A stretch of 52,411 bases of DNA from Deltaproteobacteria bacterium GWA2_45_12. Lineage in GTDB: Bacteria; UBA10199. The translations under genes and the position numbers were made by a program. Position 1 is the first letter of the stretch, and every line of letters begins with the position of its first letter. A model generated the notes under the pieces. The model saw nothing but the letters and a program-made list of their open reading frames with translations, made no database searches and was not told the origin of the DNA. The stretch lies in assembly GCA_001797365.1 (NCBI GenBank), contig MGPH01000011.1, positions 101,886 through 154,296 on the forward strand. Direction: 5' to 3'. Below, in pieces: positions 26,118 through 49,699 of the stretch.

Positions 26118-26227
26118 GTGTGTCATCCCCTTGTAAAAGCAGGAGTAATTGACACAAAGTGGCGATATGATAGTTAGGCTGCTAACGCCAGCTCGGCGCA
26201 CGCAGTTCTAAAATCGTCCAGTCGGGA

Positions 26228-26342
26228 GCGCAACGACTTTTCGCCAGAAAAGTCGTCCTCTATTTTCCATTTTCAATTATCTATTTTCTGTGTTTCTGTG
26301 CTTTGAAGTTGGCGAAAAGTCGAGAAAATAGAGGTTTAAGAA
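26228..26342 (+). promoter_or_regulatory. Structured leader of a four-helix-bundle gene, copy 1
   Basis: Arm A CGACTTTTCGCCA (26234-26246) can pair locally with GAAAAGTCG (26247-26255) or distantly with A' TGGCGAAAAGTCG (26310-26322). Arm B CCTCTATTTTC (26257-26267) matches B' GAAAATAGAGG (26324-26334), which contains the GAGG Shine-Dalgarno of the gene at 26343. The order A-B-A'-B' would let A:A' and B:B' form a pseudoknot, or let local A pairing free other options. A near-identical leader occurs at 49416-49540. It may control translation or be part of the mobile unit. Confidence 0.6.
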
Positions 26343-26714
26343 ATGCCATTTCAGTTTGAAAATTTGGAAGTCTATCAAAAAGCTCTAGACTGGGTCGAAG
26401 CCATTGAGTCCCTCTGTGAATCACTTAAAGGCAAAACCTCTTACTCATTGATCGACCAACTCTCTCGCGCTGCCTTATCGATCCCCCTCAACATCGCCGA
26501 AGGCAATGGCCGATGGCACAAAGGTGAAAAACGCCAATTTTTCTGGATCGCTCGCGGATCTACCTTCGAATGTGTTCCGATCATACAAGTTTTACACCGA
26601 AAAAATTTAATCAACGACATCCAATATTCCGGCTATTATGAACAACTCGATGTCATCGCCAAAATGCTCACGAATTTGGTGAAGTCGGTGGAGGATTTGA
26701 GAAAAGATATATGA
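26343..26714 (+). CDS. Four-helix-bundle protein (23S rRNA intervening-protein family)
   Basis: The 123-residue protein has the family signature in full: FENLEVYQKALDWVE at the N-terminus, LIDQLSRAALSIPLNIAEGNG at about 37-57, FFWIARGSTFEC at about 68-79, and a final helix. The family was first found as ORFs inside bacterial 23S rRNA intervening sequences and is now known mainly as free-standing copies of unknown function; the fold is a pentameric four-helix bundle. This copy is not in rRNA. It sits behind a structured leader and is followed by a decayed gene, as if inserted there. Confidence 0.85.
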   Translation: MPFQFENLEVYQKALDWVEAIESLCESLKGKTSYSLIDQLSRAALSIPLNIAEGNGRWHKGEKRQFFWIARGSTFECVPIIQVLHRKNLINDIQYSGYYEQLDVIAKMLTNLVKSVEDLRKDI

Positions 26715-49344: not shown

Positions 49345-49418
49345 GCGCCCGTAGCTCAGCTGGATAGAGTACCTGACTACGAATCAGGTGGTCGCATGTT
49401 CGAATCATGCCGGGCGCG
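49345..49418 (+). tRNA. tRNA-Arg(ACG)
   Basis: The cloverleaf is complete: acceptor stem GCGCCCG (49345-49351) with CGGGCGC (49411-49417), D-arm GCTCAGCTGGATAGAGT, anticodon stem CCTGA/TCAGG with anticodon ACG at 49379-49381, T-arm GCATG-TTCGAAT-CATGC, and G as discriminator. CCA is not encoded. The four-helix-bundle leader copy 2 begins within its 3' end. Confidence 0.93.
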
Positions 49419-49540
49419 CAACGCCTTTTCGCCAGAAAAGGCGTCCTCTATTTTCCATTTTCAATTATCTATTTTCTGTGCCCTTAAGCTGGCGAAAAGG
49501 CGAGAAAGTAGAAAATGGAGAATAGAAAATAGAGGTTTTT
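49416..49540 (+). promoter_or_regulatory. Structured leader of four-helix-bundle gene, copy 2
   Basis: This copy shares a 39-base identical core (49442-49480) with copy 1 (26254-26292). Arms are A CGCCTTTTCGCCA (49422-49434), local partner GAAAAGGCG (49435-49443), A' TGGCGAAAAGGCG (49490-49502), B CCTCTATTTTC (49445-49455) and B' GAAAATAGAGG (49525-49535). Relative to copy 1, one base pair changed from A:T to C:G in all three A-type arms together. This copy also has an extra inverted repeat of the A+T-rich core around 49507-49532. Confidence 0.6.
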
Positions 49541-49699
49541 ATGGCTTTTCCTTTCGAAAATCTCGACATCTACAAAAGAACATTCTTTTTCTCTAAAAAA
49601 ATCTCACCCAAAAAAAGACACCATAAAGTGAACAGCCAAGGCTGCGCCGTAGGCCAAAAACGTATAGAGAAAAAAAGTTTGAAGGGGCAGTTTCCATGA
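49541..49699 (+). pseudogene. Truncated four-helix-bundle gene start
   Basis: The frame begins MAFPFENLDIYKR, which matches the N-terminus of the four-helix-bundle family (compare FENLEVYQKA in the copy at 26343). After about 13-20 residues the similarity ends and the frame runs antisense into the 3' end of feoB, stopping at 49697-49699. None of the family's central motifs are present. The most likely reading is a deletion that joined the element to feoB DNA. Confidence 0.7.

Follow-up and report, generated by a model that had tools for sequence, protein, structure and literature searches.

Does the leader in front of a small four-helix-bundle gene regulate that gene, or does it belong to something else? 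The question is raised by positions 26228 to 26342 of a 52,411-nucleotide stretch of DNA from Deltaproteobacteria bacterium GWA2_45_12, called the window below. A preliminary description had placed five arms, A, a, A', B, and B', in this leader and proposed that they hide the Shine-Dalgarno sequence of the gene. Our reading of the sequence agrees with the positions of all five arms (Table 1). The A:a stem is formed by 26233-26242 and 26247-26256, and the GAGG that ends B' lies 8 nt upstream of the ATG at 26343.

Table 1. Features of the leader, its gene, and the second copy (window positions)
Feature	Position	Strand	Basis and remarks
Conserved motif GCAGTTCTAAAATCGTCCAGTCGGGAGC, last bases like a tRNA 3' end (GGGAGC)	26202..26229	+	12 places in 8 of 46 genomes at up to 3 mismatches
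Arm A and hairpin loop, CGACTTTTCGCCA	26234..26246	+	Read directly; alignment A2; arm adjoining the tRNA-end copy
Arm a, GAAAAGTCGT	26247..26256	+	Second strand, after A, of the tRNA-proximal hairpin; 99% of cells paired, both sides changed in 3 of 10 pairs
Arm B, CCTCTATTTTC	26257..26267	+	Heptamer array begins here; pairs with B' in sequence; CCTC..GAGG core, exact pattern in 5 of 46 genomes
Heptamer units, YATTTTC type	26260..26291	+	Read directly
Arm A', TGGCGAAAAGTCG	26310..26322	+	Complement of A and the loop; both sides changed in 5 of 13 pairs; own-versus-permuted test
Arm B', GAAAATAGAGG, with Shine-Dalgarno GAGG 26331-26334	26324..26334	+	GAGG mean unpaired probability 0.11
S23 / 23S rRNA-IVP four-helix-bundle gene, 123 aa	26343..26714	+	PF05635 E 1.6e-27, TIGR02436 E 1.8e-26; nearest solved structure PDB 2gsc, E 1e-10
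tRNA-Arg(acg), intact, second copy fused to it	49345..49419	+	ARAGORN; Rfam RF00005 66.5 bits
Second leader copy	49420..49535	+	127.7 bits with model R1 (first copy, 117.2)
Truncated S23 start remnant, MAFPFENLDIYKRTF...	49541..49600	+	Read directly; no PF05635 match at this place

The folding z-score of the window leader was -2.9 relative to dinucleotide shuffles. Of 11 gene-bearing leaders, 9 have the GAGG paired in the predicted fold, at a mean unpaired probability of 0.00-0.11; in L072 (0.34) and L184 (0.67) it is less paired. As far as prediction goes, the Shine-Dalgarno sequence is therefore hidden, as had been proposed. The preliminary description had also suggested that the order A-B-A'-B' permits a switch between folds. 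This does not follow: in the modeled pairings B:B' is compatible with A:a as well as with A:A', and because it forms with either, the order alone gives no Shine-Dalgarno on/off switch. Among the 4227 models of Rfam 15, none matched positions 26150-26420 up to an E value of 1, and at gathering scores the whole window yielded a tRNA and no other RNA family.

The gene behind the leader passes the cut-offs of the S23 family, with 96.3 bits for PF05635 (cut-off 33.8) and 92.5 bits for TIGR02436 (cut-off 24). S23 proteins are widespread, and we know of no established function for them. The S23 subtype found here is 77-88% identical to the copies in four sampled genomes (G036, G006, G019, and G001), where ClpB is 66-67% identical, a pattern that horizontal transfer would give. 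In G043, the S23 protein (80%) and ClpB (79%) are about equally identical, so this copy may perhaps have descended vertically. Among the 17 S23 matches most similar to the window protein, 10 belong to loci where a tRNA gene lies a short distance upstream.

We then turned to the pairing itself, which the preliminary description had taken to be under selection on the strength of two copies in the window, naming the lack of covariation beyond them as the result that would speak against it. Covariation was found far past these two, in 40 copies and in an alignment of ten leaders. For 40 tRNA-flanking copies from four genomes, we scored how well the hairpin arm plus loop complements its own core and each of the other cores. 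The own-core sum was 332.5, against 249.5 ± 7.3 after permutation (maximum 283.5, none of 20,000 permutations as high), and for the 33 copies without S23 it was 256.5, with 205.4 ± 6.2 after permutation and no value that high in 50,000; the copies are related, and the permutation ignores the tree. A score of at least 9 was reached by 19 of the 40 copies, while the other 21 fell below 9 and have no matching A'. In the ten-leader alignment, 5 of the 13 pairs in A:A' and 3 of the 10 in A:a had changed on both sides with pairing kept; none of 500 shuffles reached the covariation score of A:A', the same held for A:a, and slid controls scored far lower. The A and A' arms of leader L206 show one mismatch and one wobble. 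B:B' pairing was checked sequence by sequence, because the variable number of heptamers misaligns B' in the MAFFT alignment. Taken together, the arms covary with their pairing kept; template switching may have altered them jointly.

The second copy in the window, previously given as near 49416, starts at 49420, directly behind tRNA-Arg (49345-49419). Its A-type arms read CGCCTTTTC / GAAAAGGCG / GGCGAAAAGGCG, which bears out the reported change from an A:T to a C:G pair in all three arms at once. Its folding z-score was -6.6 relative to dinucleotide shuffles, and nothing past the first codons remains of its S23 gene.

How far does this arrangement extend? We sampled 46 genomes of the lineage, in which the genus of the window is represented by the window genome only. 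This genome has the leader or its CCTC..GAGG core about a dozen times, mostly abutting tRNA genes. The exact core pattern matched 5 of the 46 genomes, and a covariance model built from ten leaders matched 13. Among the distinct copies detected by the model in G000 (the window genome), G019, G036, and G034, 32 of 41 lay within 30 bp of a tRNA gene where 0.14 were expected, and the tRNA lists are partly incomplete, which can only lower this count. About 30% of the sampled tRNAs in G000, G019, and G036 have the element on one side. Matches to the core pattern outside the lineage, from a whole-database scan, had neither tRNA nor heptamer structure and look like chance. Our limited literature search, which is not proof of absence, found no published account of S23 elements at tRNA genes.

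Most copies have no gene, and S23 is absent behind 33 of the 40 scored ones. This bears directly on the proposal of a riboregulator, a cis-acting translational regulator of S23 where the choice among A:a / A:A' and B:B' pairings would govern access to the GAGG. Such a role would fit the predicted pairing of GAGG in 9 of 11 leaders and the retention of the arms in at least 8 gene-bearing or gene-remnant leaders, and S23-family proteins may bind RNA; however, the gene-less copies have the same arms and the same covariation, and a switch does not follow where A:a and A:A' both fit B:B'. We therefore consider it quite unlikely. What stands of the proposal is the conserved, covarying pairing and the predicted pairing of the GAGG; dedicated regulation of S23 finds no support, because the 33 copies without S23 match A and A' alike and the element is found next to tRNA genes. 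We read the leader as one end of an element linked to tRNA genes, in which S23 is present in some copies only; it may have a regulatory side effect on the gene.

The element has a common plan. Moving away from the tRNA, the order is the tRNA end, the hairpin A-loop-a, CCTC and 7-base units, A', and inverted 7-base units ending in GAGG; past the GAGG comes a second hairpin and the next tRNA, or an S23 gene, or other sequence. The repeat begins right behind tRNA 3' ends; where it stands in front of a tRNA 5' end, it is inverted as in a mirror. About half of the copies contain an internal A', the complement of the tRNA-proximal arm and its loop. The same plan recurs with other sequences: L184 (G027, tRNA-Leu) has ACGAAGA-type units and the A' CGCCAAATTT, L181 (G001, tRNA-His) has another heptamer sequence, and L086 (G043, partial tRNA) has other heptamers and an incomplete hairpin. 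At L073, an S23 gene lies between tRNA-Cys and tRNA-Leu. Most of the remaining S23 genes of these genomes stand between inverted 7/8-mers of locus-specific sequence. Inverted 7- or 8-base arrays that differ from locus to locus flank S23 at L064-L070, L076, L077, L083, L084, and L087. The tRNA-Val/tRNA-Arg spacer of the window genome (L123) follows the hairpin-array-hairpin plan too, built of CGTTCTT/CGTAATT units and lacking S23.

Since the element adjoins about 30% of the sampled tRNAs of three genomes, mostly without S23, it might be an ordinary spacer repeat of tRNA operons whose hairpins serve in processing or termination, and in which unrelated S23 genes happened to land. Two loci speak against this: in L132 and L182, S23 genes lie in a tRNA-Lys/Glu spacer with flanking inverted 7/8-mers and a hairpin at each end, so that one spacer contains the whole plan of hairpin, heptamers, gene, inverted heptamers, and hairpin. 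Moreover, in several families the type of leader goes with the subtype of S23. We regard the spacer-repeat explanation as highly improbable.

A different possibility is that the pairing acts at the DNA level, with A, a, and A' as recognition or fold-back sites for transposition (REP/IS200-like or MITE), or held similar to one another by template switching between inverted repeats, and with no RNA function. Several observations point this way. At tRNA 5' ends the architecture is mirror-image and the opposite strand is transcribed, some hairpins are ordinary palindromes (e.g., AATCCGCC..GGCGGATT), and template switching is a possible route by which the three arms could change in concert. G040 is an exception to the tRNA linkage, with the same core away from tRNA genes and between IS-like palindromes, GAGGCTGTC...GACAGCCTC, in a dispersed, MITE-like distribution; the copies are at L036, L041, L045, and L056-L059, and two of them have possible 4-bp flanking target repeats. 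On the other hand, A' also matches 5' loop bases that arm a lacks, and the S23-linked leaders retain B:B' with the Shine-Dalgarno sequence inside B'. The element resembles REP/BIME and MITE repeats in being short, dispersed, palindromic, and mostly gene-less, and differs from them in its tie to tRNA ends, its own arm copy A', and, in some copies, S23 with an in-repeat Shine-Dalgarno sequence. On balance, we hold a purely DNA-level role to be rather unlikely.

The motif at the edge of the element consists of GCRGTTCTAAAANCGTCCAG followed by tRNA-end-like sequence, and a reversed-pattern control for it gave 0 matches. In G019 (tRNA-Glu) and G036 (tRNA-Arg ccg), the motif closes a unit of about 0.5 kb that contains the leader and S23 (truncated in G036). 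At these two loci the 3' end of the linked tRNA itself is clearly repeated at the far side, as GTTGGGAGC in G019 and GCCGGGGGC-AC in G036, and shorter matches were found at four more loci. The window unit reaches left to the motif directly before its leader; this is the only motif of this copy, and behind S23 it has no right-end motif of its own. Judging from this arrangement, an earlier insertion may have left a copy of a tRNA end, and the window unit may then have inserted behind it.

Occupancy of the same spacer also varies among genomes. The spacer between tRNA-Lys and tRNA-Glu measures 8 bp in G019; G000 and G034 have 111-114 bp there and no S23, and G036 and G003 have 481-489 bp including S23. 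Similarly, the tRNA-Tyr/Gly spacer is 1 bp in G029 versus 106-118 bp in G000 and G036.

Other features were seen around these loci. G000:C11:84017-128114, whose right part is window positions 1-26229, contains efflux genes and also phage late genes, which occupy the left half of the window; a large serine recombinase lies upstream in the contig, after tRNA-Arg(tct) at C11:83981. The region may thus be a prophage or island of about 44 kb that has its end at the motif in front of the leader. A BRO-N-like gene, recognized by eye, occurs at L226:1580-2431 and downstream of S23 in L085, in or next to tRNA-Arg-linked inserts. Upstream of the leader in L089, a tRNA-Arg 3' half follows intron-like sequence, and a tRNA 5' half precedes the S23 element at L086:1316-1365. 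Searched with Rfam for introns and further tRNAs, the loci L089, L086, L183, and L072 yielded only the tRNA-Glu of L072.

Which known systems does the element resemble? The 23S rRNA intervening sequence (IVS) of Coxiella contains an S23 ORF, an inverted-repeat stem cut by RNase III, and, upstream of the ORF, tandem heptamers and a potential Shine-Dalgarno sequence; such sequences occur sporadically (PMC4990558). Since the family was already known in this company, the setting is less novel than the preliminary description had claimed (PMC4990558). The window-type element shares with the IVS of Coxiella and Leptospira the S23/PF05635 ORF, the heptamers, the potential Shine-Dalgarno sequence, the sporadic occurrence, and complementary stem-forming arms, here B:B' and the hairpin, with inverted 7/8-mers at the classical S23 copies. 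It differs in its place at tRNA gene ends and spacers, its extra tRNA-proximal hairpin with a matching internal A', its many gene-less derivatives, and the direct tRNA-end repeat at two loci. The window copy does not lie inside a 23S or 16S rRNA gene; it stands behind a tRNA-end-like motif, the other copies are at tRNA genes, and Rfam finds no rRNA in the window, only a tRNA. Because of its location at tRNA genes and the added hairpin with A', we file the element as a relative of the 23S rRNA IVS and not as one of them. To our knowledge, mobility of the S23-containing IVS is suspected and direct evidence is lacking.

Avd of diversity-generating retroelements is also a PF05635-like four-helix bundle (PMC10053308). 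Unlike these retroelements, the element shows no template or variable repeats and has no reverse transcriptase with it: RVT_1 matches were absent from the element-bearing genomes G001, G006, G019, and G034, and the single one in G000 is on another contig (C56). The target hairpins of diversity-generating retroelements are similar in size to those of the element. A resident reverse transcriptase as the mobilizer was rejected, given four element-bearing genomes without one, and no mobilizing enzyme came to light otherwise. With tRNA-targeting integrative elements the element shares an apparent insertion at tRNA 3' ends, stacked copies, and, clearly at two loci, a far-side tRNA-end repeat; it differs in being about 0.5 kb long, with no integrase inside its smallest units.

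Weighing these comparisons, we favor, at a probability of roughly 60%, the reading that a small selfish element of the S23/IVP kind, with tRNA 3' ends or their copies as insertion sites, has its structured left end in the leader. Counting against it are the half of the copies without A', the G040 core away from tRNAs, the missing right-end motif of the window copy, and the G043 identities. Such an element would be transcribed together with the tRNA precursor. As it does in 23S rRNA intervening sequences, RNase III would cut both the hairpin and the stem of B and B', and the tRNA would thereby mature normally. S23 would be translated from the GAGG in B', with the pairing of B dampening translation. 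For A:A', three roles come into question: the RNA may adopt it as an alternative fold or a pseudoknot, S23 or a partner may bind there, or the two arms may pair while the element inserts.

More speculatively, S23 elements might form a minimal mobile family that homes to stable-RNA genes generally, both tRNA ends and rRNA helices. The target-proximal hairpin arm would pair, as RNA or single strand, with a guide-like A' for insertion or excision, and the S23 ring would serve as cofactor, as Avd does in retroelements; we think this improbable at present. One lineage shows the same tRNA spacer empty, gene-less, and gene-bearing, together with a far-side tRNA-end repeat at two loci and strongly covarying arms. 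The element thus makes the insertion route, the RNA processing, and the binding partner of S23 testable with short synthetic RNAs and tRNA-operon reporters.
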